The notes beneath the pieces were generated by a model, which searched no databases, was not told where the DNA came from, and was given only the letters and a program-made list of their open reading frames with translations. Shown here one piece after another: positions 33,533-58,425 of a DNA stretch of 64,000 bases (within the stretch, counting starts at the first letter, position 1; each line of letters begins with the position of its first letter). Source of the stretch: Flagellimonas sp. MMG031. GTDB taxonomy: Bacteria > Bacteroidota > Bacteroidia > Flavobacteriales > Flavobacteriaceae. The stretch covers positions 1,118,501 through 1,182,500 of the forward strand of contig NZ_CP157804.1 in NCBI RefSeq assembly GCF_040112705.1, in the 5' to 3' direction. A program made the translations under genes and the position numbers.

Positions 33533-33575
33533 TAAAATTAGACCTAAGGGATAGGGGATACTATGACAAAAGTCA
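33533..33575 (-). promoter_or_regulatory. Crp/Fnr-type site and -7 element for the universal stress gene
   Basis: TGAC-AAAA-GTCA at 33564-33575, and TAATTTTA on the minus strand at 33540-33533. The TTTA begins 33.5 bp from the palindrome centre, the same register as the other members of the set. Confidence 0.65.
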
Positions 33576-33591
33576 GGTTTGGAAAAATGGT

Positions 33592-34281
33592 CTAAAAACC
33601 TTCGACCATTTCAAGAAGTTTTTGCTGGTTTTTGATACCTATTTTTTTGCCCGAAGTGTGTATGAGGCCTTTCTTTTTGAACTCAGAAATGATTCGGATG
33701 GCCGATTCGGTAGCGGTTCCAACCACATTGGAAATATCCTCTCTGGAAAGGGTAAGTGCCAAAAATCCATCCGCATCTTCCCCAAAATTGTTCTGAAGGT
33801 ACAGAAAGGCTTCGGCCATACGTTGCTTTACGGTTTTTTGGGAGATATTGACGATAACATCGTCGGCCTCCTTTAGATCGTGGGCCATGTGTCGCAACAC
33901 TTCTAGCGTAAAGTTTGGATTTTTTTGAAGGGTATTGTTAATGCTCTCCTTTGGGATAAAGCAAACCTCCATGTCTTCCACTGCAATGGCGGAAAGGTTG
34001 GCACTCTCTTCGGAGACTACCGACCGTTGGCCCAAGACTTCGCCCTTGCTGGCCAATTTTACGATCTGGTCCTTGCCGTTGGCACTGAGCTTGGAAAGTT
34101 TGGAAACCCCATTGCGAACGCAATAGACACCATTGAGTTTTTCGCCCTCTTCAAAAATGGGCTGTCCTTTTTTAATGGTCTTGGTCGTTTTGGAATCGGA
34201 GACCTGTTTCAACTCCTCTTTGCTCATGGCCCTGAGGGAGTTAAATTGTCGGATGATACAATTTTCACACCTGCTTTCCAT
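33592..34281 (-). CDS. Crp/Fnr-family transcriptional regulator, probable FixK/FNR-like
   Basis: A 229-residue regulator: cyclic-nucleotide-type beta-roll (about 25-115), dimer helix, and helix-turn-helix LTLSREDISNVVGTATESAI. Glu192 and Arg196 in the recognition helix correspond to the residues with which CRP and FNR read TGA. Cys5 and Cys8 (CENC) plus Cys54 and Cys107 could hold a metal or Fe-S cluster, though the spacing is not that of E. coli FNR. I start at ATG 34281. The ATG at 34320 lies upstream of the predicted -7 element (TAAATTTG, 34312-34305). The gene shares an operator with ccoI, so autoregulation is likely. Confidence 0.87.
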   Translation of the reverse strand: MESRCENCIIRQFNSLRAMSKEELKQVSDSKTTKTIKKGQPIFEEGEKLNGVYCVRNGVSKLSKLSANGKDQIVKLASKGEVLGQRSVVSEESANLSAIAVEDMEVCFIPKESINNTLQKNPNFTLEVLRHMAHDLKEADDVIVNISQKTVKQRMAEAFLYLQNNFGEDADGFLALTLSREDISNVVGTATESAIRIISEFKKKGLIHTSGKKIGIKNQQKLLEMVEGF

Positions 34282-34304
34282 ACTGTTGGGTTTACCTGAT
34301 GAGG

Positions 34305-34378
34305 CAAATTTAATGGACAAAGATTTATTGGTAACTGATAAATATCATATTTTTAAGAGGAAGAGTATTACAATTTTG
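34305..34378. promoter_or_regulatory. Shared Crp/Fnr operator with divergent promoters for crp/fnr and ccoI
   Basis: TGAT-AAAT-ATCA at 34336-34347. To the left, TAAATTTG (minus, 34312-34305) and to the right TTTG (34375-34378, in TTACAATTTTG) both begin 33.5 bp from the palindrome centre, at 34341.5. One bound dimer would thus sit at about -41.5 of both promoters. Confidence 0.72.
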
Positions 34379-34400
34379 CGTCAGGTAAAGCAAATGTGAA

Positions 34401-36785
34401 ATGGCAGATTCGACCTGTTATCATTGTGGAGATCAATGCGGTAGCCGCAGCGTGCAGTTTGATGATAAGGATTTTTGTTGCAATGGTTGCAAAACCGTTT
34501 ATGAAATCTTTACATCGAACGGCCTGTCCACCTTTTATGAAATCGAGAGCAAGGCGGGGACCACACCAAACGAGATCAGACAGAAATACGATTTTTTGGA
34601 CAACCAAGAAATCGTAGAGCGATTGGTAGAGTTCAATGAAGAAGGGGTGCAGGTGGTAAGCCTTAGCATTCCCACCATTCATTGCAGTTCCTGTATTTGG
34701 GTCTTGGAGAACCTGAACAAACTGCATCCCGCTATATCCGTTTCACAAGTCGACTTTCCAAAAAAGACCATTCGGGTCACCTATAAAACAGCAGATTTTT
34801 CCTTGAAGGCGCTTGCGCTTTTATTGGGAAGCATCGGGTACGAGCCTTACATTTCTTTAGAGGAATACAATAAAAAAGGGAAAAAGGTCGATCGTTCCTT
34901 AATATATAAGTTGGGTGTGGCCGGATTTGCCTTTGGCAATGTGATGCTCTTTTCCTTTCCCGAATATTTTGAGGTGGAGGAGTTTTGGTTGGACCAATAC
35001 AAGCATGTGTTCCGCTGGTTGATGTTCGCCTTTTCTCTCCCCGTCGTTTTTTATGCATCTCAGGATTATTTTATTTCCGCCTATAAGGGCATTCGTTCCA
35101 AATTGTTGAATATTGACGTGCCCATCGCTTTGGGGATACTGGTACTTTTTTTAAGGAGTACCGCCGATATCATGTTCGATTTGGGTTCCGGTTTTTTTGA
35201 TAGCCTAACAGGACTGGTGTTCTTTTTGTTGTTGGGCAAATTTTTTCAGCAGAAGACTTACGCCTATCTGTCGTTTGAACGGGATTACAAATCCTATTTT
35301 CCCATTGCCGTAACCCGTTTGAAGAAGAATGGGGAAGAAGAAAATATTCAAATCTACAATATCGAGGTAGGTGACAGGGTGCTGATCCGTAGCCACGAGA
35401 TCATTCCTGTGGATTGTATCCTGGTCAAAGGAACGGCCGAAATCGATTACAGCTTCGTAACCGGAGAATCTGAACCTGTGTTTAAGGAATCGGGAGAGAA
35501 ACTGTTCGCCGGTGGCAAGCAGCTTTCCGGTGTCTTGGAAGTGGAAGTGCTCAAATCGGTCTCCCAAAGTTATTTGACACAACTCTGGGGCAACTCTATA
35601 TTCTCCAAGGATAAGGCCAGTCATTTCCAGACCCTTACCGATAGTATTGGCAAACGCTTTACCATTGCGGTGCTGAGCATTGCCACCATATCCACGCTGT
35701 TCTGGTTGATTTTTGACCCAAGCCTGGCCTTAAACGTATTTACCTCGGTGTTGATCATTGCCTGTCCCTGTGCCATTGCTTTGGCAGCCCCATTTACCTT
35801 GGGCAATATGCTTCGCATTTTTGGCAGATACAAGTTTTACCTGAAGAATACCAATGTAATTGAACGCTTGGCCAAAATTGATACGGCAATCTTCGATAAA
35901 ACGGGAACGCTCACCACCAACCAAAAGGACACCATACATTATGAAGGTATGGAACTCACAGAAGAGGAAACCGCACTTCTAAAAACGACCCTACGGGCGT
36001 CCAACCATCCCCTGAGCCGATCGCTTTATAATATTCTAAAGTCCAATGCCATCATGACTTTGGAAGAGTTCCAAGAACATACTGGAAAAGGGATTGAGGG
36101 TAAATACAACCAACACTCCATAAAGGTAGGGTCTGCATCTTATGTAGGAGAAAAAACATCAAACACCATTGCGAACACCTCAGTCTATATCAGTGCCGAT
36201 GAAGATGTGAAGGGACGGTTTGTGTTCAAGAATACCTATCGAGAGGGGATGAGCAACATATTTGAAGAACTGTCCAGCGATTTGGAACTGGGCATTCTTT
36301 CGGGGGATAATGACGGTGAAAGAGGGCAATTGGAGAAAATGTTGCCGACAAAAACGAAGATGCTATTTGACCAAAAGCCCGAGGATAAGTTGGAATACAT
36401 CAAAACGCTACAAGAAAAACACAAAGTGTTGATGGTAGGTGACGGGCTGAACGATGCCGGTGCCCTTGCACAAAGTGATGTAGGCTTGGCAGTTTCAGAA
36501 AACATCAACGTGTTTTCGCCCGCTTGCGATGGAATTTTGGATGCCAGCCAATTGAGGCTGCTTCCGAAGTTCTTGCAACTGTCCAGAAAGTCCATTCGGG
36601 TAATCAAATTGAGCTTTTTGCTCTCGCTCTGTTACAACGTGGTCGGCTTGTATTTTGCCGTAACCGGGCAGTTACAGCCAGTAATTGCGGCTATTTTAAT
36701 GCCTTTGAGCTCCATTAGTATAGTGGTGTTCACCACATTGGCCACCAATTATCTCGGTAAAGAATTAAAAAATCAAGAAAGCTGA
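34401..36785 (+). CDS. ccoI: cbb3 oxidase copper-loading P1B-type ATPase
   Basis: A 794-residue heavy-metal P-type ATPase (FixI/CcoI) that moves copper across the inner membrane for insertion into cbb3 oxidase. An N-terminal Cys-rich domain (CYHCGDQC, CCNGC at 28-32) precedes an HMA domain with CSSC at 95-98. The core has CPC at 455-457, the phosphorylated Asp499 in FDKTGTLT and GDGLNDAGAL. The putative membrane-domain layout is that of CcoI rather than CopA, and ccoS follows immediately. The promoter carries a Crp/Fnr site. Confidence 0.95.
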   Translation: MADSTCYHCGDQCGSRSVQFDDKDFCCNGCKTVYEIFTSNGLSTFYEIESKAGTTPNEIRQKYDFLDNQEIVERLVEFNEEGVQVVSLSIPTIHCSSCIWVLENLNKLHPAISVSQVDFPKKTIRVTYKTADFSLKALALLLGSIGYEPYISLEEYNKKGKKVDRSLIYKLGVAGFAFGNVMLFSFPEYFEVEEFWLDQYKHVFRWLMFAFSLPVVFYASQDYFISAYKGIRSKLLNIDVPIALGILVLFLRSTADIMFDLGSGFFDSLTGLVFFLLLGKFFQQKTYAYLSFERDYKSYFPIAVTRLKKNGEEENIQIYNIEVGDRVLIRSHEIIPVDCILVKGTAEIDYSFVTGESEPVFKESGEKLFAGGKQLSGVLEVEVLKSVSQSYLTQLWGNSIFSKDKASHFQTLTDSIGKRFTIAVLSIATISTLFWLIFDPSLALNVFTSVLIIACPCAIALAAPFTLGNMLRIFGRYKFYLKNTNVIERLAKIDTAIFDKTGTLTTNQKDTIHYEGMELTEEETALLKTTLRASNHPLSRSLYNILKSNAIMTLEEFQEHTGKGIEGKYNQHSIKVGSASYVGEKTSNTIANTSVYISADEDVKGRFVFKNTYREGMSNIFEELSSDLELGILSGDNDGERGQLEKMLPTKTKMLFDQKPEDKLEYIKTLQEKHKVLMVGDGLNDAGALAQSDVGLAVSENINVFSPACDGILDASQLRLLPKFLQLSRKSIRVIKLSFLLSLCYNVVGLYFAVTGQLQPVIAAILMPLSSISIVVFTTLATNYLGKELKNQES

Positions 36786-36825
36786 TATATGTCATTTTCT
36801 GAAGAATACCATCACAGTAGTTTTA
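36783..36825 (+). promoter_or_regulatory. Crp/Fnr-type site and -7 element for ccoS-ccoNOQP
   Basis: TGAT-ATAT-GTCA at 36783-36794 (its TGA is the ccoI stop codon) with TAGTTTTA at 36818-36825, TTTA starting 33.5 bp from the centre. It gives the oxidase structural genes their own promoter 57 bp before ccoS. Confidence 0.68.
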
Positions 36826-36844
36826 CACCTAAATTCAGGCAGGT

Positions 36845-37054
36845 ATGAGTGTTATTTATGTGTTGTTGGCCATAAGCATTACGGTGGCCGTAGTCTTTTT
36901 TATAGCCTTTGTTTTTTCGGTAAAAAGCGGACAGTACGATGATACCTATACCCCATCGGTAAGAATGTTGTTTGAAGATGAGGTGATCAGGAACAAGGAT
37001 AAATCAAACTCAAATAAAAAGGAAATCAAACAAACTAAAAGTACAAACCAATAA
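36845..37054 (+). CDS. ccoS: cbb3 oxidase maturation protein CcoS
   Basis: A 69-residue single-pass membrane protein: hydrophobic SVIYVLLAISITVAVVFFIAFVF, then the polar SGQYDDTYTPSVRMLFEDE typical of CcoS. It is needed for cofactor insertion into cbb3 oxidase. It is two bases upstream of ccoNO, and the Asn/Lys-rich tail is weakly conserved in this family. Confidence 0.93.
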   Translation: MSVIYVLLAISITVAVVFFIAFVFSVKSGQYDDTYTPSVRMLFEDEVIRNKDKSNSNKKEIKQTKSTNQ

Positions 37055-37056
37055 AT

Positions 37057-39258
37057 ATGGAAATACAACAGTTCCGTTACGATAACAAAATCGTACAAAA
37101 GTTCTTATACGCCACCATACTTTGGGGCGTGGTGGGTATGGCAGTAGGCCTTTTGCTGGCCTTTATGTTTTTGTTCCCTAATGTTACAGAAGGTATCTCT
37201 TGGTTGAGCTTTGGACGCTTGCGCCCATTGCACACCAATGCCGTGATCTTCGCATTTGTGGGGAATGCCATTTTTGCAGGGGTATATTACTCGCTGCAAC
37301 GCTTGCTTAAAGCTAGAATGTTCAGTGATGTCCTGAGCAACATCAACTTCTGGGGTTGGCAATTGATCATTGTCGCCGCGGCGTTGACCTTGCCCTTGGG
37401 CTACACGACCTCCAAGGAATACGCCGAATTGGAATGGCCCATAGATTTGGCCATTGCAGTAGTATGGGTAGTTTTTGGTTGGAACATGATAGGTACCATC
37501 TTAAAAAGACGGCAAAGACACCTATACGTGGCAATTTGGTTCTACTTGGCCACCTTTGTTACGGTAGCGGTGTTGCACATCTTCAACAGTTTGGAGTTGC
37601 CGGTAACCGCTTTAAAAAGTTACTCGGTGTACGCTGGTGTTCAGGATGCGTTGGTACAATGGTGGTACGGTCACAATGCGGTAGCATTTTTCTTGACCAC
37701 GCCTTTCTTGGGGTTGATGTACTACTTCGTGCCCAAAGCGGCGAACCGTCCCATATATTCCTATAGATTATCCATCGTCCACTTCTGGTCGTTGATATTC
37801 ATCTATATCTGGGCAGGTCCTCACCACTTGTTGTATTCCGCATTGCCCGATTGGGCTCAGAACCTTGGAGTGGTATTCTCCGTAATGTTGATCGCTCCAT
37901 CTTGGGGTGGTATGATCAACGGTCTGTTGACCCTTCGCGGGGTATGGGACAAAGTGCGTACCGATGCTACGTTGAAATTTATGGTAGTGGCCATTACCGG
38001 TTATGGTATGGCAACCTTTGAGGGTCCCATGCTTTCTTTGAAAAACGTAAATGCCATTGCGCACTTTAGTGATTGGATCATTGCACACGTGCACGTAGGC
38101 GCCTTGGCTTGGAACGGGTTCTTAACCTTTGGTATGATCTATTGGTTGGTGCCCCGAATGTTCAAAACCGAACTGCACTCCAAAGGATTGGCCAATTTCC
38201 ATTTCTGGATCGGAACCTTGGGTATTGTATTGTATGCGCTGCCCATGTATGTGGCAGGATTTACCCAGGCACTTATGTGGAAAGAGTTCAACCCCGATGG
38301 CACCTTGGTTTACGGTAACTTCTTGGAGACCGTAACCCAGATTATCCCAATGTACTGGATGAGGGCCATAGGAGGTTCCTTGTACATCTTGGGTATGTTC
38401 GTATTGTTGTACAACGTAGTTATGACGATCAGGGCAGGCAGCAAAGTTGAGGATGAAGCTGCAGAAGCCCCGGCTTTGGAGCGTGTCGCCAAACGAAGAG
38501 TGGCTGGGGAGACCTTCCACAACTGGTTGGAAAGAAAACCGGTACAGTTGACGATTTTGGCTACCGTAGCGATTCTAATCGGAGGTATCGTTCAGATTAT
38601 CCCAACTATCTTGGTGAAATCCAATATCCCGACCATTACCAGTGTGAAACCCTATACGCCTTTGGAACTGGAAGGCCGAGACCTTTATATCAGGGAAGGT
38701 TGTGTGGGTTGCCACTCACAAATGATACGTCCGTTCCGAAGCGAAGTGGAACGCTACGGCGAGTATGCCAAAGCAGGGGAATTCGTGTACGATCACCCAT
38801 TCCTATGGGGTAGTAAGCGTACAGGTCCCGACTTGTTGCGGGTTGGAGGCAAATACTCCGATAGCTGGCACCTGAACCATATGTACGACCCACAAAGTAC
38901 CTCGGCAGGTTCCATCATGCCATCCTATCAATGGTTGGTCACCGACGAGCACGATCGTAGCGATGTAGAGGCTAAAATGGAAGCCATGGTACAACTGGGG
39001 GTTCCCTATACCGAAGAGGACATCGCCAATGCCCAACAATCCATGGCCGAGCAGGCAGAGGAAATCGAAAAGAGTCTTTATACAGACCCAGAATTCGAAA
39101 GGACCTATGAGGCGGACAAAAAATACGCCCAAGAAAACGGATTGGATTTTGTGGAAATGCGAGACCGTGAAATCGTGGCCTTGATAGCTTACTTACAGCG
39201 ATTGGGTACCGATATCAAAATTGAAGGAACAGAAGAAACTATATCTCAAAACAAATAA
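37057..39258 (+). CDS. ccoNO: cbb3-type cytochrome c oxidase, fused subunits I and II
   Basis: The 733-residue fusion joins CcoN (about 1-480) and CcoO (about 500-733). CcoN is the catalytic heme-copper subunit with about 12 membrane segments and the histidines for heme b, heme b3 and CuB (for example LHTNAVIFAF, WWYGHNAVAF, GPHHLLY, HVHVGALAWNG). CcoO is membrane-anchored and has one c-type heme at CVGCH (549-553). The enzyme reduces O2 with high affinity and pumps protons. The fusion is the usual Bacteroidota arrangement. Confidence 0.96.
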   Translation: MEIQQFRYDNKIVQKFLYATILWGVVGMAVGLLLAFMFLFPNVTEGISWLSFGRLRPLHTNAVIFAFVGNAIFAGVYYSLQRLLKARMFSDVLSNINFWGWQLIIVAAALTLPLGYTTSKEYAELEWPIDLAIAVVWVVFGWNMIGTILKRRQRHLYVAIWFYLATFVTVAVLHIFNSLELPVTALKSYSVYAGVQDALVQWWYGHNAVAFFLTTPFLGLMYYFVPKAANRPIYSYRLSIVHFWSLIFIYIWAGPHHLLYSALPDWAQNLGVVFSVMLIAPSWGGMINGLLTLRGVWDKVRTDATLKFMVVAITGYGMATFEGPMLSLKNVNAIAHFSDWIIAHVHVGALAWNGFLTFGMIYWLVPRMFKTELHSKGLANFHFWIGTLGIVLYALPMYVAGFTQALMWKEFNPDGTLVYGNFLETVTQIIPMYWMRAIGGSLYILGMFVLLYNVVMTIRAGSKVEDEAAEAPALERVAKRRVAGETFHNWLERKPVQLTILATVAILIGGIVQIIPTILVKSNIPTITSVKPYTPLELEGRDLYIREGCVGCHSQMIRPFRSEVERYGEYAKAGEFVYDHPFLWGSKRTGPDLLRVGGKYSDSWHLNHMYDPQSTSAGSIMPSYQWLVTDEHDRSDVEAKMEAMVQLGVPYTEEDIANAQQSMAEQAEEIEKSLYTDPEFERTYEADKKYAQENGLDFVEMRDREIVALIAYLQRLGTDIKIEGTEETISQNK

Positions 39259-39260
39259 CC

Positions 39261-39449
39261 ATGTTGAAATTTGTAAAAGAACATATGGAAACCATCGATG
39301 GGATAGCCAACTATCCCATGGTTTCCCTGCTCATCTTCTTTGTATTTTTCGTTCTATTGTTCTGGTGGGTCTTCACGGCTACCAAAGAGCACATAAGGGA
39401 GATGTCCGAATTGCCACTGGAAAACGAAGATCAACCAAACAAACTATAA
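39261..39449 (+). CDS. ccoQ: cbb3 oxidase subunit CcoQ
   Basis: A 62-residue single-pass membrane protein (MVSLLIFFVFFVLLFWWVFT) between ccoNO and ccoP, two bases after ccoNO. CcoQ stabilises the oxidase. Identification rests on size, topology and position, since the family is poorly conserved. Confidence 0.88.
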   Translation: MLKFVKEHMETIDGIANYPMVSLLIFFVFFVLLFWWVFTATKEHIREMSELPLENEDQPNKL

Positions 39450-39453
39450 TATT

Positions 39454-40428
39454 ATGAGCACAAAAACACCTTGGTGGATAAGAGTCCCGTTCCTATTCTT
39501 CCTAATCTTCGGATTGATGGAATTCTTTATAGACTCAGGGGACAAACCAGCAATCATAGAATATCCCATCACACAGTTTTTTATGCTGTTGGTGTTGATG
39601 ATCCTTATTGCGATCGAACTGATCTTGGCTTCCATTGAAAACATTATGTTCCAAACCCTTTCAGAAGAAGGCAAGGAACGTTATCTGGAAACCAAGAGCA
39701 AGAAATATGAATGGACATGGGCCAAAAACCTCATGGAAAGACTAACGCGTAGCCGCTCCATAGAGCGCGAGGGCGAAATTGTCCTCGACCATAATTACGA
39801 TGGTATCCGCGAGTTGGACAATGTATTGCCTCCTTGGTGGGTGTACCTGTTCTATGCGACCATAGTTTTTGGAGTAGTGTATTTGGTACGTTTCCATGTA
39901 ATTGGTGATTACGACCAGAAATTGGAATATGAGCAAGAAGTAGCCGCAGCGCAACAGGCCATAGAGGAATACAAGAGAACGGCCAAGGATTTGGTCGACG
40001 CCAGCACGGTGGAGTTCCTTTCGAATGAGTCGGATTTGGCAGCGGGTGAGAAAATATTCGAGTCCAATTGCGTAGCCTGTCACATGGCAGATGGCGGCGG
40101 TGGAATCGGCCCTAACCTAACCGATAAATATTGGATTTTGGGCGGTGGTATCAAAAATATCTTTACCACCATTTCCGAAGGTGGACGCGATGGCAAGGGT
40201 ATGGTCGCTTGGAAGCAGACCTTAAAGCCGGCCGAAATGGCCCAGGTTGCCAGTTATGTGATGACCTTGGGAGGAACAACACCTGCCAATCCAAAGGAAC
40301 CTGAAGGAGAAATATGGGTAGACCCCAATGCTCCTGAAGATGCCAATGGTACCGAATCTGAAACCGAAGAAACTGCACCGGCAGAAATGGGGCAGGCCAC
40401 AGATTCAACAGAAGTTGCCATGAACTAG
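39454..40428 (+). CDS. ccoP: cbb3 oxidase subunit III, single-heme CcoP
   Basis: A 324-residue subunit that delivers electrons to CcoO. Two membrane segments near the N-terminus (about 10-60) precede the CcoP anchor (LPPWWVYLFYATIVFGVVYL, about 127-146) and a cytochrome c domain with one heme site CVACH at 206-210 and the distal Met in KGMVAWKQTL. Proteobacterial CcoP usually has two CXXCH motifs; only one is present here, and the C-terminus is instead an acidic Glu/Thr-rich tail. The extra N-terminal segments are also unlike the short proteobacterial form. Confidence 0.93.
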   Translation: MSTKTPWWIRVPFLFFLIFGLMEFFIDSGDKPAIIEYPITQFFMLLVLMILIAIELILASIENIMFQTLSEEGKERYLETKSKKYEWTWAKNLMERLTRSRSIEREGEIVLDHNYDGIRELDNVLPPWWVYLFYATIVFGVVYLVRFHVIGDYDQKLEYEQEVAAAQQAIEEYKRTAKDLVDASTVEFLSNESDLAAGEKIFESNCVACHMADGGGGIGPNLTDKYWILGGGIKNIFTTISEGGRDGKGMVAWKQTLKPAEMAQVASYVMTLGGTTPANPKEPEGEIWVDPNAPEDANGTESETEETAPAEMGQATDSTEVAMN

Positions 40429-40479
40429 TCCCGTTGGGACACCCGGCAACCAAATATTTATCCATAAACCACAAATGCG

Positions 40480-45286: not shown

Positions 45287-46654
45287 TTAAACGGTCATGG
45301 AAAATATTCGGGTATCTGGTTTTTTTCTTTGCAATTTAAGGTCAAAGGCCATACTGATGTTTCGCACAAATGGTCTTCCCTTATCGGTTACCTTGATCTG
45401 TTGGTTGTCCAGTGCTACCAATCCGTCCTTCTCCAGTTCGGAAAGGTTGTCCAACACCATATCAAAATCAACCGATTTTTCGTCCTCCTCGCTCCAGCTT
45501 GTCTCAAATCGGCACATGATATTGAGGATATGCCTTCTGAGGATTTCATCCTCTTCATTAAGGATATGTCCTCTAAAAATAGGGATAACTCCATGCGAAA
45601 CCAAATTCTGGTATTCCTCCACATTCTTCACATTTTGGGCAAAGCCATACCAGCTATCGCTGATGCTGGAAGCGCCCAAACCGACCAATAGTTTGGTCTT
45701 GGATGGGGTGTAGCCCATAAAGTTTCGGTGCAGTGTCCCATTTTCCAAGGCCTTGTACAGACTGTCCGTGGGCAATGCAAAATGGTCCATTCCCACATCC
45801 TTGTACCCAAATTCGGAAAGCATTCGTTTGCCCATTTCGTACTGGGCCTTTTTTTCTACGGATGATGGTAAATCTTCCTCCTTGTAGCCACGTTGTCCGT
45901 TGCCCTTGAGCCATGGCACGTGCGCATAACTATAAAAAGCAATCCTGTCGGGTTTGATGGCGTTGGTTTTAATGATGGTGTTCTCCACATCGGCACAATT
46001 TTGAAACGGAAGACCATAAATAATATCGTGTCCCACCGAGGTATATCCGATTTCCCTGGCCCAATCGGTAACGTTCTTTACATTCTCAAAGGGTTGAATC
46101 CTGTTAATGGCACGTTGAACGGTGAGATTGTAGTCCTGTACTCCAAAACAGACCCTTCTGAACCCTACATCATAAAGGGCCTGTAAGTGTTCCCGTGTAG
46201 TATTGTTCGGATGTCCTTCAAAACTAAATTCGATATCATCGGTTTTGGTGCTCAGCCGAACAATTCCTTCAATCAATATTTTAAGGTTCTCGGGAGAGAA
46301 AAAAGTGGGGGTTCCGCCGCCCAAATGAAGCTCTTTTATAACGGGTTTTGAGCCCAAAAGGTCAACATACAACTCCCACTCTTTCAAAACCGCTGTAATA
46401 TAGGGTCGCTCCACTTCGTGGCGCTTGGTAATCCTTTTATGGCATCCACAAAACGTGCACATATGCTCGCAAAAGGGTAAGTGGATATATACACTGATAC
46501 CCTCTTCGGGATTTTCTTCGAATGCCCTGAGTACACTCGAATTCCATTTTTTGCCTGAAAAACTATTGATGTCCCAATAGGGCACAGTAGGATAACTCGT
46601 GTATCGAGGGCCCGGAACATTGTATTTTTGTACTAATCCGCACATAAGCTGCAT
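45287..46654 (-). CDS. hemN: Oxygen-independent coproporphyrinogen III oxidase
   Basis: A 455-residue radical SAM enzyme that decarboxylates coproporphyrinogen III to protoporphyrinogen IX without oxygen, for heme synthesis at low O2. PFCEHMCTFCGCHK has the CxxxCxxC cluster plus the extra Cys characteristic of true HemN. PRYTSYPTVPYWD at the N-terminus and FSFEGHPNN are also diagnostic. The start may be Met 46654 or the Met three codons later. The promoter has a Crp/Fnr-type site, fitting anaerobic induction. Confidence 0.95.
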   Translation of the reverse strand: MQLMCGLVQKYNVPGPRYTSYPTVPYWDINSFSGKKWNSSVLRAFEENPEEGISVYIHLPFCEHMCTFCGCHKRITKRHEVERPYITAVLKEWELYVDLLGSKPVIKELHLGGGTPTFFSPENLKILIEGIVRLSTKTDDIEFSFEGHPNNTTREHLQALYDVGFRRVCFGVQDYNLTVQRAINRIQPFENVKNVTDWAREIGYTSVGHDIIYGLPFQNCADVENTIIKTNAIKPDRIAFYSYAHVPWLKGNGQRGYKEEDLPSSVEKKAQYEMGKRMLSEFGYKDVGMDHFALPTDSLYKALENGTLHRNFMGYTPSKTKLLVGLGASSISDSWYGFAQNVKNVEEYQNLVSHGVIPIFRGHILNEEDEILRRHILNIMCRFETSWSEEDEKSVDFDMVLDNLSELEKDGLVALDNQQIKVTDKGRPFVRNISMAFDLKLQRKKPDTRIFSMTV

Positions 46655-46671: not shown

Positions 46672-46714
46672 CAAAAATACCGTTGATGGCTCTCATAAAA
46701 CATGATAATTGTCA
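46672..46714 (-). promoter_or_regulatory. Crp/Fnr-type site and -7 element for hemN
   Basis: TGAT-AATT-GTCA at 46703-46714; TATTTTTG on the minus strand at 46679-46672 is a perfect -7, with TTTG starting 33.5 bp from the palindrome centre. The hemN start lies 54 bp from that centre. Confidence 0.7.
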
Positions 46715-46754: not shown

Positions 46755-46797
46755 TGACGAGTATCATATTTTGCCCTTTATTGAAGCTGTACTTTTA
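46755..46797 (+). promoter_or_regulatory. Crp/Fnr-type site and -7 element for the GCS2-CBS gene
   Basis: TGAC-GAGT-ATCA at 46755-46766 and TACTTTTA at 46790-46797, TTTA again 33.5 bp from the centre. The flank ATCATATTTT matches that of the ccoI operator. It lies 40 bp from the hemN site, so the two divergent genes have separate operators. Confidence 0.66.
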
Positions 46798-49882: not shown

Positions 49883-49884
49883 AA

Positions 49885-50664: not shown

Positions 50665-50686
50665 GACTTCTACTATTTAACTCTGT

Positions 50687-50729
50687 TAAAGGTAGCTTTC
50701 TTCAATCATGCAGAATATGATAATAATCA
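50687..50729 (-). promoter_or_regulatory. Crp/Fnr-type site and -7 element for tonB
   Basis: TGAT-AATA-ATCA at 50718-50729; TACCTTTA on the minus strand at 50694-50687, with TTTA 33.5 bp from the centre. The tonB ATG is 59.5 bp from the centre. Confidence 0.65.
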
Positions 50730-50775
50730 GGTTTTGGGCTGAGGTAAGGTTTTTGTTGTCAAAAGGTTACGCAAT

Positions 50776-51489: not shown

Positions 51490-51516
51490 GGTCAATCGCT
51501 TTTGATTGTTGGAGTA

Positions 51517-51560
51517 CAAAGGTTTTCATTAAATACCACGACAAAGTATGACGTTTGTCA
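51517..51560 (-). promoter_or_regulatory. Crp/Fnr-type site for the DUF2490 gene
   Basis: TGAC-GTTT-GTCA at 51549-51560. The best -7 match on the minus strand is AACCTTTG at 51524-51517, one base further from the centre than in the other promoters. The start at 51489 lies 65 bp from the centre. Confidence 0.55.
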
Positions 51561-51591
51561 TAGACTGCCTTTTTCGGCAAAAAAAGATGGG

Positions 51592-52560
51592 TTAGGCTTG
51601 TTTTTTCTTTTCGTTTTCCCAAATAAGGGCCGCAGCACCGCAGATTGCAGCGGTTTTTCCTTCCATGCTGGAATGTAGGAGCTTCACCTTGCCCTTGTAA
51701 ACATCAAGTAAAAACCCGTTGAAGTACTTCTCCAAAGGGGTCATGATCCATTTGCCGCTGTTGGTGAGTCCACCCATTAAAATAAAGGCTTCCGGTTGGG
51801 TAAAAGCGGTAAAATTGGCCAGTGCTTGTGCCATGATGCGAGCGGTATAATCAAAGGCCTTTAGGGCAATTTCGTCTCCTTCCTCCGCTGCTTGGGTAAT
51901 ATCTTCCCCATGCAAATCATTGTAGGCGATATCCCTAAAACGGCTATCCACCAAATATTTGCTCTGCATGTACATTACTGTTCGCTTAAGGCCCGTGGCG
52001 GAAACATAGGCTTCCAATCCGCCTTTTACGCCAAGCCCCGTCAATCTGCCGTCTCCCATCGTCATGTCCACGTGGCCCAATTCGCCGGCAAAGCCGTCAT
52101 AGCCATCAATCAACTGACCGTTGGCAACGATTCCGGCACCAAAACCGGTACCGAGGGTAATCACGATAAAATCGGTCATGTTTTTGGCACCGCCGAAGAG
52201 CATTTCCCCCAGTGCGGCTGCACTGGCATCGTTCATAATGCGCATGGGCATGGGCATGCGCTTCTTTAATTTTTCAATCAAGGGAACGGTGCCCTTCCAC
52301 AACAAATTACTGGCATTTTCAATGGTGCCATTTTTACTGGATGCATTGGGTGCCCCAATACCGCAACCGATCACATTGGCATCTTGTCCCAATTGGTCCA
52401 ATAGCTCATCGGAGGTAGACTTTATTTTGTTCAGGTACTCTTCCAAATTGGGGAAATCCTTCGTTCTAAAAAAGGTTTGTTCGTGGCAAACACCCTGTTC
52501 ATCAACAAGGCCGATCTTGGTTTTAGTGCCACCAATGTCTATCCCAATGACTAAATCCAT
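51592..52560 (-). CDS. ROK-family sugar kinase, probable glucokinase
   Basis: A 322-residue ROK kinase. IGIDIGGTKTKIGLVDEQG is the phosphate-binding loop, LGTGFGAGIVANGQLIDG and GELGHVD (sugar- and metal-binding Glu/His) are present. The usual CxCGxxGCxE zinc motif after ELGH is replaced by a Cys-free GRLTGLGVKGGLEAY, so the structural zinc appears lost. It likely phosphorylates glucose or a related sugar with ATP. It diverges from the operon containing pckA and pfk. Confidence 0.86.
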   Translation of the reverse strand: MDLVIGIDIGGTKTKIGLVDEQGVCHEQTFFRTKDFPNLEEYLNKIKSTSDELLDQLGQDANVIGCGIGAPNASSKNGTIENASNLLWKGTVPLIEKLKKRMPMPMRIMNDASAAALGEMLFGGAKNMTDFIVITLGTGFGAGIVANGQLIDGYDGFAGELGHVDMTMGDGRLTGLGVKGGLEAYVSATGLKRTVMYMQSKYLVDSRFRDIAYNDLHGEDITQAAEEGDEIALKAFDYTARIMAQALANFTAFTQPEAFILMGGLTNSGKWIMTPLEKYFNGFLLDVYKGKVKLLHSSMEGKTAAICGAAALIWENEKKKQA

Positions 52561-52679
52561 AACTAAAGTGGTGTTGTTTTGCGGTTTCTAAATATAACCA
52601 AAAAGGTGGCAATAAAATAACCCTCCCGATTTTTATGGCGGCCGTTTTTTTGCTAATATCAAGGAAAAGTTGAAAACAC

Positions 52680-52722
52680 TGACTTCTGTCATGTTATAGA
52701 TCGTAGTCCGATTCTACTTTTG
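52680..52722 (+). promoter_or_regulatory. Crp/Fnr-type site and -7 element for the usp-SLC13-pckA-pfk operon
   Basis: TGAC-TTCT-GTCA at 52680-52691 and a perfect TACTTTTG at 52715-52722, TTTG beginning 33.5 bp from the centre. Confidence 0.7.
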
Positions 52723-52754
52723 AAAACAAATACAACCAATTAACAATTTTAGGT

Positions 52755-53546
52755 ATGAGCAGTTTAAAAAAAGTATTGATTCCATTTGATTTTTCAGAGG
52801 CGTCCGTAAACGCCCTGGAATATGTCGTCAGTTTTATAGGTACCCAAAGATCAATCGGCATTTTGGGGCTTTACGTAGGCACTATGCCCTTGAGCGAGGC
52901 TGATAACGAAAAACTTCGCAAAGAATTTTTACAGTTGCTGGATTCATTCAACACCAAATTAAAAGTGGCCCCGGAGTTCACCACGGATACGGGAGAGGTG
53001 ATCAGTACCATTCTTTCGGTACAGGAAAAGAGCAAGGCCGATTTGATCATGATGGGCACCATGGGCGATAAGATTACCGATGAGGCCATCACCAATACTT
53101 CAAAATTGGTCTTGAAGGCCGACTGCCCGGTTCTTGCCATTCCCTACGGCACTGGTATTAAGGAGCCCAAGAACATTGCGTTGGTCATGGGAGGTGAAAA
53201 AATTGAGGATAAAGCCGTGTTGGGAACCTTGTTGGACTTGGCCCGCTCTTTTGATGCCAGGGTCCATGTACTCACCATTTACAAAGAATCCGTATACGAT
53301 GAGGAGGCCATAAAGGAATCCAACGAGAACCTTTTGGAGTACTATTTGGAGCATTTTTATGCGGACCATACTTTTATTAAAAGTGAAGATGTAGAGCAAG
53401 GGATATTGGACTACATCAAAAAGAAAAATATTGACATGTTGACCATATTGCCCCGTAACCATACCGAAAAAAGTACACCTTCGGAGGGCAGGCTCACCAA
53501 ACTATTGACCTTGCACTCCGAGATCCCGGTGTTGGCACTGGACTAA
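52755..53546 (+). CDS. Universal stress protein, tandem UspA domains
   Basis: A 263-residue two-domain Usp (KVLIPFDFSEASVNALEYVV; second domain from about 145). The ATP-binding motif is weakened (MGTMGDKITDEAITNTSK in place of G-x2-G-x9-G-S), so it may not bind ATP. It is the first gene of a four-gene run with the permease, pckA and pfk (gaps of 18, 18 and 12 bp), and its promoter has a Crp/Fnr-type site. Confidence 0.85.
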   Translation: MSSLKKVLIPFDFSEASVNALEYVVSFIGTQRSIGILGLYVGTMPLSEADNEKLRKEFLQLLDSFNTKLKVAPEFTTDTGEVISTILSVQEKSKADLIMMGTMGDKITDEAITNTSKLVLKADCPVLAIPYGTGIKEPKNIALVMGGEKIEDKAVLGTLLDLARSFDARVHVLTIYKESVYDEEAIKESNENLLEYYLEHFYADHTFIKSEDVEQGILDYIKKKNIDMLTILPRNHTEKSTPSEGRLTKLLTLHSEIPVLALD

Positions 53547-53564
53547 CCTTCTGAAATAACTAGC

Positions 53565-55400
53565 ATGCTGCCACTGCTAATCATTCTTGGAATTACCATC
53601 ATATTGTTTATATGGGGGAAATTCCCGCCCGATGTTGTGGCCCTTATGGCCATGCTATCGCTCTTTTTGACCGGTATTTTGGATTTGGGTGAGACCTTGG
53701 CAGGTTTCAGCAACCCCACGGTAATCATGATCGCGGCCCTTTTTATTATTGGCGAAGGACTTTCCAGAACAGGATGGACCGCCATGGCCGGACAATTTTT
53801 TGTGAAATGGGCCCGTAGGAACGTTTCCCGTCTTTTGGTAATTGTCACCTTAGGGTCCAGTCTTTTGTCAGGATTTGTGAGCAATACGGGAACCGTGGCA
53901 GCTTTGCTGCCAGTAACCGTCACCGCGGCTTGGAATGCAGGTACCCTACCTTCCAAGTTATTGATTCCGGTGGCTTTTGGCTCCAATACAGGTGGATTGT
54001 TGACCCTAACAGGGACGCCCCCCAATATTATTGTGAGCAACGCCTTGGCCCAAAATGGTCTTACAGGGTTTTCGTTCTTTGAATTTGGTTTGATAGGAGT
54101 GCCATTGCTCCTCATCTCCATCCTTTACTTTCGATATGTAGGACATAGGCTGCTTCCCGAACATAGGACCAATAACAAACCTATGGCCATTGATCAGGAA
54201 ATGCACAAGTGGATTGAGAACTACAGTATTGGGGATAACCTATATCGCCTACGTATTCGCTCCATGTCCCAATTGATCAATACCAAGATCGGGGATTGGA
54301 ATTTTGAATCGGAACACAAAGTGTCCGTGATGCGGCTTAAACGAAGACATCCCAACAAACTCCAAAGAATTCCACAATTTGTGGAAATGCCGGGCTTGGA
54401 TACCGAAATGCGCTATCATGATATCATAACCGTAAAGGGAGAGCCTGAAGATGTGGATAAGTTGGTGCTCAAGTTTCATTTGGGGGTGATTCCATTGAAA
54501 CCCGAAAAAGATATGCTCAAAAAGGAGCTGATCAATCAGGAGGTGGGCATGGCAGAAATGATCATTACCCCAAAATCGGTTTTCGTTGGTAAAACGGTGC
54601 CCTTGGGACACTACCTCAAACAGGCGGGAGTCCAACTCTTGGCGGTTTCGAGAGATAACGTTCCCTTGATGGGGAAAATCAAGATCAAGGCTGGGGATGC
54701 CTTCGTGATCCGCGGACAGTGGGAAAACATTATTGCCTTGAAATCCGTATACGAGAACCTGGTGATATCTGGAAGTCCGGAGGCGCTGTCCAAAAACGTG
54801 GATCAGTTGACCACAAGGAGTTACATCGCGCTAGGTACCTTGATATTGATGATTCTTCTATTGGTTCTCAATATATTGCCAGGTGCCATGGCGGCCCTTA
54901 TCTGTGCAGGGATTATGATGTTGACAGGATGTGTGCCCATCTCCAAGGCATATCAAGGGATAAGTTGGACCAGCGTGGTGATGATAGCCGCAATGATTCC
55001 CATGGGACTGGCATTGCAAAAAACAGGAGTGGCACAATTGGCCGCAGAAAGTTTGGTGAGCAGTTTGGGAAGCATCCACCCAGTCGCTTTGTTGGCTGGC
55101 ATCTTCCTGTTGACGGCAGCTTTCAGTCAAACCATCAACAACTCGGCAACTGCGGTTTTGATGGCACCAATCGCCATCATTGCATCGACCACATTGGGAG
55201 TTTCGCCAAAACCTTTCATGATTGCAGTCGCCGTGAGTGCATCTACGGCATTCTTGACCCCGGTAGGCACTACCACAAACGCTATGGTGATGGTGGCGGG
55301 AGGATATAAATTTATGGATTATGTAAAAGTGGGCGGCCCCTTGCTCCTGCTTTTCTTTATAGCAACATTAGTATTGGTTCCATGGATATGGAGCTTCTAA
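53565..55400 (+). CDS. SLC13/DASS-type permease with two RCK_C (TrkA-C) domains
   Basis: A 611-residue transporter. Membrane domains flank a soluble centre (about 205-380) made of two TrkA-C-like domains (NYSIGDNLYRLRIRSMSQL; EMIITPKSVFVGKTVPLG). TLTGTPPNIIVSNAL and its pseudo-repeat TPVGTTTNAMVMVAGGYKF are the SNT-type substrate motifs of the DASS fold. Family members with this central insert transport sulfate or dicarboxylates, coupled to Na+ or H+. Location before pckA would suit a C4-dicarboxylate, but this is inference. Confidence 0.86.
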   Translation: MLPLLIILGITIILFIWGKFPPDVVALMAMLSLFLTGILDLGETLAGFSNPTVIMIAALFIIGEGLSRTGWTAMAGQFFVKWARRNVSRLLVIVTLGSSLLSGFVSNTGTVAALLPVTVTAAWNAGTLPSKLLIPVAFGSNTGGLLTLTGTPPNIIVSNALAQNGLTGFSFFEFGLIGVPLLLISILYFRYVGHRLLPEHRTNNKPMAIDQEMHKWIENYSIGDNLYRLRIRSMSQLINTKIGDWNFESEHKVSVMRLKRRHPNKLQRIPQFVEMPGLDTEMRYHDIITVKGEPEDVDKLVLKFHLGVIPLKPEKDMLKKELINQEVGMAEMIITPKSVFVGKTVPLGHYLKQAGVQLLAVSRDNVPLMGKIKIKAGDAFVIRGQWENIIALKSVYENLVISGSPEALSKNVDQLTTRSYIALGTLILMILLLVLNILPGAMAALICAGIMMLTGCVPISKAYQGISWTSVVMIAAMIPMGLALQKTGVAQLAAESLVSSLGSIHPVALLAGIFLLTAAFSQTINNSATAVLMAPIAIIASTTLGVSPKPFMIAVAVSASTAFLTPVGTTTNAMVMVAGGYKFMDYVKVGGPLLLLFFIATLVLVPWIWSF

Positions 55401-55418
55401 CCATTAAAATCGAAAGAT

Positions 55419-57035
55419 ATGAGCACAAACAAAGATCTTGGAAAGTACGGATTAAAAAATGTCCAGGCGCAATGGAATTTGGACGCTGAAACATTACAAA
55501 AACTTACTCTGGAAAAAGGCATGGGTGTCGAGACCGAAAATGGTACCCTATGCATCAATACCGGTAAATTTACCGGACGTTCTCCAAAAGACCGTTTTTT
55601 GGTGAAGGACGATTACACCAAGGACAAGGTTTGGTGGGGCAGAATCAATAAGGCCGTGTCGCCAGAAAACTTTGACAAATTATATGATGAGGTAGTCAAC
55701 TACCTCAGTGGAAAGGAAGTTTTTGTTAGGGATGCTGCAGTATGTGCCGATCCCAAATATAAGATGAACGTGAGGACCATTACGGAGTATCCATGGTCCA
55801 ACTATTTCATCAAAAACATGTTTTTGCGATTGGACGACAGCGAACTGGAAAATTTTGAAGAGGAGTGGCTGGTGTTGTGTGCTCCCGGATATGAAGCTAC
55901 CAATCCATCCCAATACGGAATCTTGAGCGGAAACTTCTCCATCCTCAACTTTACCAAAAAGATTGCATTGGTCGCGGGTTCTGCCTATACCGGAGAGATG
56001 AAAAAGGGTATTTTCTCTGCCCTTAACCTTATTCTTCCTACCGAAAAGGACGTTTTGCCAATGCATTGCTCGGCCAACGTTGGTGAAGCGGGAGATACCG
56101 CAATTTTCTTTGGGCTTTCCGGTACCGGAAAAACAACTTTGTCCGCCGATCCAGATAGAAAATTGATCGGGGACGATGAGCATGGGTGGACCAAGGAGGA
56201 CACCATATTCAATTTTGAAGGGGGCTGCTATGCGAAGGTGATTGACCTGACGGAAGAAAAGGAACCCGATATTTACAGGGCCATACGTCCAGGTGCCCTA
56301 TTGGAAAACGTAGTTTTTAAGGAAGGGACCAAAGAGGTGGATTATTTTGATAGTACCATTACCCAAAACACGAGGGTAAGCTATCCCATCTATCATATCG
56401 ACAACATCCAAGAGCCTTCGTACGCATCGAATCCCAAAAATATCTTTTTCTTAACTTGTGATGCCTTTGGTGTTTTGCCCCCAGTCGCTAAATTGACCCC
56501 TGGGCAAGCAGCCTACCACTTTATTTCGGGCTATACGGCCAAGGTAGCTGGTACAGAGGCAGGGATTACGGAGCCGGTACCTTCGTTCTCGGCCTGTTTT
56601 GGGGAGCCTTTTATGCCATTGCATCCAGCGGTATACGCCGAAATGTTGAGCGAAAAAATGAAAGCTTCCGGTGCAAACGTTTGGTTGATCAATACCGGGT
56701 GGAGCGGCGGACCCTACGGAGTGGGATCCAGGATCAAATTGAAATATACGCGGGCAATGATTTCCGCGATCTTGGAAGGTAAATTGGAAGATGTGGATTA
56801 TGATACCCATCCCATTTTTGGGCTGCATATGCCAAAGTATTGCCCTGGGGTTCCAACGGAAATATTAGACCCCATGAATACCTGGCTTCAAAAAGGAGCC
56901 TATGTGAGCAAGGCAATCCAGTTGGCGCATTCGTTCCATATTAACTTTGATAAGTTTGCAAGTCAAGCTTCCGAAGAAATTATGAACGGGGGACCACTGA
57001 TCGATTCGCACCATAGTTTGACAGAACATCTTTAA
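55419..57035 (+). CDS. pckA: Phosphoenolpyruvate carboxykinase (ATP)
   Basis: A 538-residue enzyme interconverting oxaloacetate + ATP and phosphoenolpyruvate + CO2 + ADP. The N-terminal FTGRSPKDRFLVKD binds the substrate, GLSGTGKTT (232-240) is the kinase-1a P-loop and LIGDDEHGW the metal motif. ATP specificity follows from the family (not the GTP type). It controls gluconeogenesis, or C4 formation in fermentative metabolism. It is cotranscribed with pfk. Confidence 0.97.
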   Translation: MSTNKDLGKYGLKNVQAQWNLDAETLQKLTLEKGMGVETENGTLCINTGKFTGRSPKDRFLVKDDYTKDKVWWGRINKAVSPENFDKLYDEVVNYLSGKEVFVRDAAVCADPKYKMNVRTITEYPWSNYFIKNMFLRLDDSELENFEEEWLVLCAPGYEATNPSQYGILSGNFSILNFTKKIALVAGSAYTGEMKKGIFSALNLILPTEKDVLPMHCSANVGEAGDTAIFFGLSGTGKTTLSADPDRKLIGDDEHGWTKEDTIFNFEGGCYAKVIDLTEEKEPDIYRAIRPGALLENVVFKEGTKEVDYFDSTITQNTRVSYPIYHIDNIQEPSYASNPKNIFFLTCDAFGVLPPVAKLTPGQAAYHFISGYTAKVAGTEAGITEPVPSFSACFGEPFMPLHPAVYAEMLSEKMKASGANVWLINTGWSGGPYGVGSRIKLKYTRAMISAILEGKLEDVDYDTHPIFGLHMPKYCPGVPTEILDPMNTWLQKGAYVSKAIQLAHSFHINFDKFASQASEEIMNGGPLIDSHHSLTEHL

Positions 57036-57047
57036 GATAAATTACAA

Positions 57048-58370
57048 GTGACCGATACAAATAGATTCCACATAGAAAGCCTAGGGGCGTCCAAGTACAG
57101 TTCGCCCCTACAATTGAGCACCGTTAAGGGAGACAACATCTTTAATTTCGTGAGCGATGCGGATCGGTTGATATTCGATCCGTCGATTTCCTATTTCAAT
57201 CAATGCCTTGCGAATAAGGAGGAACCAGTCTGTCTGGAAAAAGCCGGTCCACGACAGCACCTCTTTTTTGATGCCCAAAACACGACGGCTGCCATAGTCA
57301 CCTGCGGTGGCTTGTGCCCGGGCATCAACAATGTGATCCGTGGCTTGGTGATGGCACTACATTATTTCTATGGGGTCAAGAAAATTATCGGTATTCCATA
57401 TGGTTACGAAGGGTTGAATCCAGATAAAGGCCATGAGCTAGTGGAGCTGACACCGGATAAGGTAAAGGATATCCATCAGTTTGGAGGTACTTTTTTAGGA
57501 TCTTCCAGAGGGGGGCAGGATGTTTCGGTAATGGTGGATACCTTAGAAAACAATCAAGTGGACATGCTATTTGCAATTGGTGGCGATGGAACCTTAAAAG
57601 GGGTGAACGCCATTGGAGAGGAAATTGCGAAACGTAACGGGAAAATAAGTGTGGTCGGTATTCCAAAGACCATCGATAACGATATCGACCTCATTGATGA
57701 GTCTTTCGGATTTGAGACGGCTTTTGATGTGGCCAGTCCCATTTTGCGGGATGCCCACAATGAGGCTACAGGTGCCTTCAATGGAATTTCCATCATTAAA
57801 TTAATGGGAAGGGATAGTGGATTTATAGCTGCTTCGGCAGCACTGGCCATGCCCGTGGTCAATTTTGTACTGATTCCCGAGATGGATTTTGTCTTGGAAG
57901 GGGAACATGGTTTTTTGAACATCCTCGAAGAACGGTTGAAGTATAAAAAGCATGCCGTAATTGTGGTGGCCGAAGGGGCCGGGCAACAATTGTTCACTAA
58001 AAAGGAAGAAGTAAAGGATGCTTCGGGGAATATCCAGCACCAGGACATTGGGGTTTTCCTAAAGGAAAAAATCGCGGCCTATTTTAAGGAGAAATGTCCG
58101 GTGACGATTAAGTACATCGATCCTAGCTATATTGTGAGATGTGCTCCGGCGAACTCCAGTGATAGTGTTTACTGCAGCCGATTGGCATATCACGCCGTGC
58201 ACGGAGCCATGGCAGGCAAAACCAAGTTCGTGGCCAGCAAGATCAATAACCGATACGTGTACATTCCCATTACGGAAGTAACCAAAAAGCGTAAAAAAAT
58301 CGACTTGGAAGGAGAGTTTTGGTTCTCTGTGCTGCAAAGTACGGGACAGCCATTTTCGTTGGGGCAATAA
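57048..58370 (+). CDS. ATP-dependent 6-phosphofructokinase, long form
   Basis: A 440-residue PFK of the plant-like clade, with about 75 extra N-terminal residues over the classical 320-residue enzyme. TCGGLCPGINNVIRG binds phosphate, GGDGT (178-182) with Gly at the position that is Asp in PPi enzymes points to ATP, and GIPKTIDNDI carries the catalytic Asp and the Lys usual in this clade. MGRDSGFIA is also present. The start is GTG 57048. It opposes pckA in carbon flow, yet shares its operon. Confidence 0.9.
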   Translation: MTDTNRFHIESLGASKYSSPLQLSTVKGDNIFNFVSDADRLIFDPSISYFNQCLANKEEPVCLEKAGPRQHLFFDAQNTTAAIVTCGGLCPGINNVIRGLVMALHYFYGVKKIIGIPYGYEGLNPDKGHELVELTPDKVKDIHQFGGTFLGSSRGGQDVSVMVDTLENNQVDMLFAIGGDGTLKGVNAIGEEIAKRNGKISVVGIPKTIDNDIDLIDESFGFETAFDVASPILRDAHNEATGAFNGISIIKLMGRDSGFIAASAALAMPVVNFVLIPEMDFVLEGEHGFLNILEERLKYKKHAVIVVAEGAGQQLFTKKEEVKDASGNIQHQDIGVFLKEKIAAYFKEKCPVTIKYIDPSYIVRCAPANSSDSVYCSRLAYHAVHGAMAGKTKFVASKINNRYVYIPITEVTKKRKKIDLEGEFWFSVLQSTGQPFSLGQ

Positions 58371-58382
58371 TCGAATTGAAAA

Positions 58383-58425
58383 TGACAATTGTCATTAAAT
58401 TTAAAATGAAAGGGTCATAGATTTG
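58383..58425 (+). promoter_or_regulatory. Crp/Fnr-type site and -7 element for the hibernation factor
   Basis: TGAC-AATT-GTCA at 58383-58394 (also a perfect 12-bp palindrome) and a perfect TAGATTTG at 58418-58425. TTTG begins 33.5 bp from the centre. Confidence 0.72.

Follow-up and report, generated by a model that had tools for sequence, protein, structure and literature searches.

FNR of the E. coli type carries the cysteines CxxCx5C and C122, has a recognition helix with ExxSR, and reads the site TTGAT-N4-ATCAA, which lies at -41.5 in its class II promoters. The cyclic AMP-dependent CRP has the site TGTGA-N6-TCACA. The rhizobial FixL-FixJ-FixK cascade runs from a PAS kinase through a phosphorylated regulator to a Crp/Fnr protein, which activates cbb3 oxidase and hemN. 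For Flavobacterium psychrophilum, the main text of a study with mapped transcription starts describes a TAnnTTTG box at -12 to -5 of sigma-A promoters and, when oxygen is limiting, higher levels of cbb3 oxidase and of the enzymes of haem synthesis (PMC9723704). Here we analysed a 64-kb stretch of the Flagellimonas sp. MMG031 genome (contig NZ_CP157804.1, positions 1,118,501 to 1,182,500), called the window below, in which a first-pass annotation had described nine TGAY-N4-RTCA palindromes serving ten promoters of a Crp/Fnr-type regulon. We consider it likely that these are class II operators of a regulon found across the family Flavobacteriaceae, which would respond to oxygen and be read by two activators: the Crp/Fnr regulator encoded in the window (clade A) and a fusion of a response-regulator receiver with a Crp module encoded elsewhere in the same genome (the fusion).

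A pattern scan of the window recovered all nine palindromes (Table 1) among 14 TGAYN4RTCA matches, as against 5.18 expected, and none of 100 shuffles gave at least 14. The five further palindromes (104, 29433, 29627, 58424 and 58889) are roughly the number that chance would supply. The geometry that had been proposed, with the TTTR of a TAnnTTTR element 33.5 base pairs (bp) from the palindrome centre on the strand of the gene, was found at eight promoters, namely those of the universal stress protein gene (usp) at 33510, the regulator, ccoS-ccoN, hemN, GCS2-CBS, tonB, usp-CitMHS-pckA-pfk, and hpf. The T of the TA is 29.5 bp from the palindrome centre in the window promoters, and since the F. 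psychrophilum box spans -12 to -5, the centre falls at -41.5. An activator centred at -41.5 on the strand of the gene, with one dominant spacer of 23 nucleotides (nt), is the arrangement of a class II promoter, and we regard this promoter code and its geometry as established at the level of sequence with hardly any doubt. For the regulator gene, the geometry predicts a transcription start at 34300.

The remaining two promoters deviate. The ccoI element had been described as in register with a shifted TA; the register held and the shift did not, since the element is CAATTTTG, with C for T at -12. An off-register ccoI promoter is ruled out. Of the 12 named loci of relatives inspected on the ccoI side, nine have CAAATTTG and three have CAATTTTG. 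The element before the DUF2490 gene, AACCTTTG, is one base off, as had been noted, and moreover lacks the TA; it is the weakest of the ten promoters and DUF2490 is weak as a target. The distance of 54-71 to the start codons was nearly right, as the likely starts lie 54-70 from the palindrome centre, or 48-64 nt from its edge.

The genome-wide excess of promoter-proximal sites had been set as a test beforehand, and it was found. We searched for the strict 43-mer TGAY-N4-RTCA-N23-TAnnTTTR, using the reversed pattern of equal composition as the control. The 3.76-Mb genome, a single contig, contains 26 strict sites and no reversed match; when spacers of 17-25 were allowed, 33 matches appeared, 26 of them at spacer 23, and again none reversed. 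The form TGA-N6-TCA-N23-TAnnTTTR with one mismatch gave 92 matches versus 45 reversed, so that the exact form alone is specific. A start codon follows within 14-109 nt at 25 of the 26 strict sites and at 194 nt at the other (2222190). Site 346407 is doubtful because the frame found there is only the inner part of the next gene. Five of the 26 lie within open frames of at least 120 codons. Beyond the window, the sites precede genes for three more universal stress proteins, Thioredoxin_9, a Glyoxalase_4 protein, DoxX, cytochrome c, GH3, OmpW, a biotinyl-lipoyl protein and a ferritin/Dps-like protein, as well as genes that we read from the sequence as coding for a TerB-like protein and pyruvate phosphate dikinase, the latter with the help of the target lists from other genomes. 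The palindromes 29433 and 29627 were not among the own-genome matches with a -7 element at spacers 17-25. The pair (29433-29638, about 190 bp apart) lies upstream of a stand-alone receiver gene (29698-30087).

Across 149 family genomes, one per genus, the strict 43-mer occurs 2141 times versus 79 for the reversed control, a 27-fold excess, and 137 of the genomes have at least one site. The preference for one spacer was seen in genomes with either regulator alone: of the 185 matches at spacers 13-33 in four fusion-only genomes, 119 had spacer 23 (37 reversed over all spacers), as did 104 of the 209 in four clade-A-only genomes (65 reversed). Only 16 of 100 fusion-only sites and 8 of 71 clade-A-only sites lie within open frames of at least 120 codons, compared with 0.89 and 0.87 of 1500 random positions drawn from the same loci. 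In both sets, TGA is preceded by A or C in 0.90 of sites and by T in 0.04-0.05; G, as in a CRP-type site, precedes it in only 0.05 of either set.

Other features of the two site sets were also apparent. The T directly after the palindrome is near-invariant (0.97 and 0.85), and positions -33 to -30 are rich in T, which may be what is left of the Bacteroidota -33 element. In 5 of 95 and 2 of 69 cases (L169, L182, L183, L189, L210 and L230), one palindrome has a -7 element in register on each strand, so that a single dimer could act at two divergent class II promoters.

The sites are conserved upstream of orthologues, as the first-pass annotation had required. Among 80 named loci of close relatives, the strict 43-mer stands before usp in 76 and before the regulator in 63, the palindrome alone being found within 150 nt of the regulator in 66; before ccoN it is present in 66 of the 72 loci holding that region. 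On the ccoI side it occurs in none of the 80, because the -12 base is C in the rows inspected. A strict ccoI site does occur in L055, a locus from another genus. We also aligned the usp promoters of 77 loci without using the motif, leaving out three loci without a usp start. In this footprint TGA/TCA and TA/TTT are 100% conserved, the core 87%, the spacer 66%, the upstream flank 63% and the leader 78%. The ccoN and hemN promoters of genomes sampled across the family, described below, agree with this picture.

The clade A regulator combines a beta-roll like that of cyclic nucleotide (cNMP)-binding proteins with a Crp helix-turn-helix (HTH), and the PDB chain that matches it best is called 'FNR type regulator' (E 5.2e-26). 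Its closest named relatives are from Muricauda sp. ARW1Y1 (100% identity) and Flagellimonas marinaquae (99%). The recognition helix is TATESAIR, and TATESxIR is found in 18 of 24 rows shown from the clade A search. Compared with the ExxSR of FNR, Glu and Arg are kept and Ile takes the place of Ser. Very probably, judging from the sequences, clade A is a reader of the sites.

The fusion, a receiver domain joined to cNMP and HTH_Crp domains, was the second match of its own genome in the search with clade A. It adjoins a histidine kinase (L068:9103-10632) with PAS domains by Pfam and three universal stress genes, a cluster 0.8 Mb from the clade A gene that carries three strict sites. D9, D10, D52 and K104 of the receiver are present in all 31 aligned fusion sequences, in keeping with a response regulator, here one with a Crp output, and ATESLIR is present in 24 of them; the recognition helices TATESxIR and ATESLIR are thus alike. 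In the fusion search, 6802 proteins reached E <= 1e-40 among 8000 candidates scored, and the named ones among the 120 matches listed are mostly called response regulator. The fusion occurs in 66 of the 149 family genomes (E <= 1e-70). Of the 30 fusion loci with the best scores, 29 have a site within about 1.5 kb of the gene, with 59 sites in 121 kb; among the 30 clade A loci with the best scores, 19 do. We think it quite likely that the fusion and clade A read the same operators.

The number of strict sites follows the regulator content of the genomes. With clade A taken as present at E <= 2.1e-58, and G020 and G043 (about 41% identity) counted as without it, the median is 1 in the 30 genomes with neither protein, 10 in the 53 with clade A only, 15 in the 30 with the fusion only, and 26.5 in the 36 with both. 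All four Mann-Whitney contrasts gave p < 1e-4, and a linear fit assigned 8.3 sites to clade A and 14.5 to the fusion. G056 and G108 have 34 and 37 sites without clade A. The assignment of the regulon to the adjacent Crp/Fnr protein therefore stands in part: a site precedes its own gene and site number tracks clade A. It is not the sole candidate, however, because the fusion is no weaker a predictor of site number and genomes without clade A still have sites.

Several observations weigh against two readers of a family-wide regulon. The p-values overstate independence, since the 149 genomes are related. G138, which is 99% complete, has 10 sites and no close relative of either protein, also at looser thresholds; the same is true of G048 (29 sites) and G147 (16 sites), whose assemblies are 82% and 73% complete. 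A fourth genome, G051, showed only a distant clade (35% identity) at looser thresholds. Some clade-A-only genomes have few sites (G136 has 1, G026 and G100 have 2, G045 and G123 have 3). Eleven of the 30 clade A loci (L057-L067) lack a site within about 1.5 kb, and together with the 17 of 80 close relatives that lack a strict autoregulatory site this means that autoregulation is not universal. Unlike the FNR consensus, the sites have no outer T. Distance to a start is in itself modest evidence, because random positions come within 120 nt of one in 0.36-0.44 of cases, compared with 91 of 100 fusion-only and 60 of 71 clade-A-only sites. Among 43 other genomes of the order or class, the median is 4 with a regulator (38 genomes) and 3 without (5 genomes). 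The phylum set was examined at E <= 1e-35 and 1e-45, and G332, whose weak match is its own fusion, was counted as fusion only. In the remaining phylum, 206 genomes lacking a clade A relative average 0.55 sites, and the 17 that have such a relative average 3.3 (median 2), a figure driven by G413. That genome, from another class, has 28 strict sites, no reversed match and a clade A relative of 41% identity; it supports replication beyond the family, which is weak within the family's own class, but is an isolated case at a large distance from the family.

Even if both proteins read the sites, they may not read all of them alike. Clade A might take TGAY-WWWW-RTCA and the fusion also cores with G/C, with overlap, a partition that we consider possible though we lean against it. 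For the sites with a start within 120 nt, G or C fills 4 of 240 core positions in clade-A-only and 61 of 364 in fusion-only genomes (p 2e-10), whereas the spacer G+C differs less (308/960 versus 551/1456, p 0.004). This suggests that clade A needs a stricter AT core, with genome composition as a partial confounder. However, G143, a fusion-only genome with 6 sites, has no G/C in its cores, base composition varies among genomes, and the common targets usp, hemN, ccoN, hpf and tonB imply overlap. The target lists cover part of the sites from five of the 30 fusion-only and five of the 53 clade-A-only genomes, so that absence from them is not evidence. A site stands before ccoN in all five clade-A-only and four of the five fusion-only genomes, and before hemN in five and two, respectively; usp, hpf and tonB are targets in both sets. 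Universal stress proteins are the commonest Pfam family in both (20/96 fusion-only, 6/60 clade-A-only). These tallies cover 96 first genes for the 100 fusion-only sites and 60 for the 71 clade-A-only sites; a first gene was dropped if its start lay beyond 150 nt or no frame was seen, which removed all nine ccoN cases, where a short frame that we read as ccoS precedes ccoN.

What clade A senses is suggested by its cysteines. C5, C8 and C107 are present in all 54 rows of an alignment that includes the window protein and one protein twice, and C54 in 52. In the alignment with the PDB match, C107 corresponds to FNR C122 and the CxxC to the first two N-terminal cysteines of FNR, positions that we take to be FNR cluster ligands. 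A third N-terminal cysteine at FNR spacing (CxxCx5C) is absent in clade A, which thus lacks the canonical FNR set. The strands of the Crp beta-roll that carry positions 54 and 107 are presumably neighbours. The two rows without C54 belong to a distant clade with CxxCx4C, C107 and Phe at 54. Nine family members of that clade (L364, L365, L396-L402), these two included, have Phe at 54 and C107, CxxCx4C being visible in eight and the ninth being read from an inner Met; their recognition helix is TTEEQVIR, unlike that of clade A. Ten relatives from six other families keep all four cysteines, and three proteins of another family of the order (L393, L394 and L395; f2) have lost all four. The genomes of these three still carry 3-11 strict sites.

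C54 and a third cysteine at FNR spacing thus exclude each other, which together with the joint loss fits a single four-ligand site in which one ligand has moved. We therefore give slightly better than even chances to clade A being an oxygen-sensing iron-sulfur protein with C54 as the third ligand. Against a moved ligand, three of the ten out-of-family relatives (L383, L386 and L387) have C54 plus an extra cysteine 9-10 residues past the CxxC, and L394, without the cysteine set, has a cysteine beside position 107. Alternatively, clade A could sense carbon, redox or metal, its cysteines binding zinc or forming disulfides. The third FNR cysteine is missing and the targets include carbon metabolism, and a Flavobacteriales Crp/Fnr homologue was predicted to be MalR-like and carbon-sensing in a 2021 metagenome study (PMC8510549). 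We consider this unlikely, as cbb3 and hemN are among the most constant targets and the four cysteines are kept as a set and, in the three proteins above, lost as a set. The low-oxygen programme of the first-pass annotation fits its targets, cbb3 oxidase, hemN, usp, hpf and central carbon metabolism, with DUF2490 as a weak member, and we infer oxygen as the signal.

It is improbable that clade A alone reads the sites and that the fusion has a different operator and co-occurs by lineage. The location of the clade A gene inside a cluster of nine sites, with one before itself, would agree with such a role, as would the higher site number with clade A where the fusion is absent (medians 10 versus 1). 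A sole reader is nevertheless disfavoured by the 30 fusion-only genomes with their median of 15 sites, by their ccoN sites in four of five genomes sampled, and by the sites at 29 of 30 fusion loci. Chance or composition in AT-rich intergenic DNA, for which the AT-rich motif, the 79 control matches in 149 genomes and the ratio of 45 to 92 with one mismatch might speak, is ruled out as the source of the sites by the reversed controls of equal composition, 27-fold lower, with the single dominant spacer and the usp footprint pointing the same way; a few of the matches must nonetheless be due to chance.

Taken together, we favour two activators with similar recognition helices reading one operator type, and we infer binding and activation as follows. 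A dimer centred at -41.5 would replace or overlap the -33 element, and either activator would recruit RNA polymerase with the primary sigma factor to TAnnTTTR. Clade A, a one-component regulator, would probably sense oxygen via a four-cysteine iron-sulfur site (C5, C8, C54 and C107), and the fusion is probably active when phosphorylated. Falling oxygen would then switch on the genes for cbb3 oxidase, hemN, usp, hpf and carbon metabolism. We propose more tentatively, at somewhat less than even chances, that one rigid class II code serves two senses, an FNR variant with C54 and a receiver-Crp phosphorelay, and that the regulons are additive in evolution, lineages keeping either or both proteins and retaining the cbb3 and hemN promoters through a change of reader.

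Table 1. Regulators, operators, -7 elements and target genes; positions are those of the window unless a contig or locus is named.
Feature	Position	Strand	Basis and remarks
Clade A Crp/Fnr regulator, 229 aa from ATG 34281	33592..34281	-	cNMP-binding domain PF00027 and HTH_Crp_2 PF13545; C5, C8, C54, C107
Receiver-cNMP-HTH_Crp fusion, 348 residues	C1:1967609-1968652 (L068:10610-11656)		PF00072, PF00027, PF13545
Operator TGACTTTTGTCA of usp (32602-33510)	33564..33575	-	Palindrome scan, register check
-7 element TAATTTTA of usp, in register	33533..33540	-	Register check
Operator TGATAAATATCA, common to regulator (-) and ccoI (+)	34336..34347	.	Palindrome scan, register check
-7 element TAAATTTG of regulator	34305..34312	-	Register check
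-7 element CAATTTTG of ccoI, in register, C not T at -12	34371..34378	+	Register check
Heavy-metal P-type ATPase (ccoI/FixI)	34401..36785	+	TIGR01525 above cutoff; ccoI/FixI named from its place beside ccoN
Operator TGATATATGTCA of 69-aa frame (from 36845; ccoS by our reading) and ccoN	36783..36794	+	Palindrome scan, register check
-7 element TAGTTTTA of ccoS-ccoN	36818..36825	+	Register check
ccoN-ccoO, fused cbb3 oxidase subunit I/II	37057..39258	+	NF011053 above cutoff
hemN, oxygen-independent coproporphyrinogen III oxidase	45287..46654	-	TIGR00538 above cutoff
Operator TGACAATTATCA of hemN	46703..46714	-	-7 element TATTTTTG at 46672-46679; register check
Operator TGACGAGTATCA of GCS2-CBS/AstE pair	46755..46766	+	-7 element TACTTTTA at 46790-46797; register check; Pfam gives CBS and AstE domains only, GCS2 being the name from the first-pass annotation
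Operator TGATTATTATCA of tonB (TonB_C domain)	50718..50729	-	-7 element TACCTTTA at 50687-50694; register check
Palindrome TGACAAACGTCA before DUF2490 gene	51549..51560	-	AACCTTTG at 51517-51524, one base off (weak); register check, Pfam
Operator TGACTTCTGTCA of usp-CitMHS-pckA-pfk	52680..52691	+	-7 element TACTTTTG at 52715-52722; register check
usp, CitMHS transporter, PEPCK (pckA) and PFK genes, co-directional	52755..58370	+	Domain matches
Operator TGACAATTGTCA of hpf	58383..58394	+	-7 element TAGATTTG at 58418-58425; register check
Ribosome hibernation factor hpf (Ribosomal_S30AE)	58447..58746	+	Domain match

The kind of system is known, a Crp/Fnr class II regulon; what would be new is the proposed sharing of the operator, together with the arrangement of the cysteines. 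The concrete operator with its fixed geometry can be used for regulon prediction across the family and comes with two candidate proteins. The system also lets one ask whether a ligand of an FNR-type iron-sulfur site can change its place and whether one operator set can serve two sensors.

Among known systems, the sigma-A promoters of F. psychrophilum share the TAnnTTTG box at -12 to -5; the main text of that study has no occurrence of 'Crp', and the part available names no oxygen-response regulator (PMC9723704). Bacteroides MalR is likewise a Crp/Fnr-family regulator of the Bacteroidota, but it answers sugars, and the accessible part of its description includes neither a four-cysteine set nor a -41.5 code (PMC8510549). 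The resemblance to E. coli-type FNR extends to the Crp/Fnr fold, the CxxC, the cysteine aligned with C122, and the Glu and Arg of the recognition helix, and, at class II promoters, to TGA half-sites, a distance of 29.5 bp from centre to -12, and targets of the low-oxygen type. Unlike FNR, clade A has C54 instead of the third N-terminal cysteine and Ile for the Ser of the recognition helix, and the flavobacterial sites lack the outer T, are paired with the Bacteroidota -7 element TAnnTTTG, and would have an operator type common to a second activator. With FixL-FixJ-FixK, the fusion shares a PAS kinase, a predicted phosphorylated regulator, a Crp/Fnr module, and cbb3 and hemN as targets. The difference is that the receiver is fused to the Crp/Fnr module, so that the functions of FixJ and FixK would share one protein.

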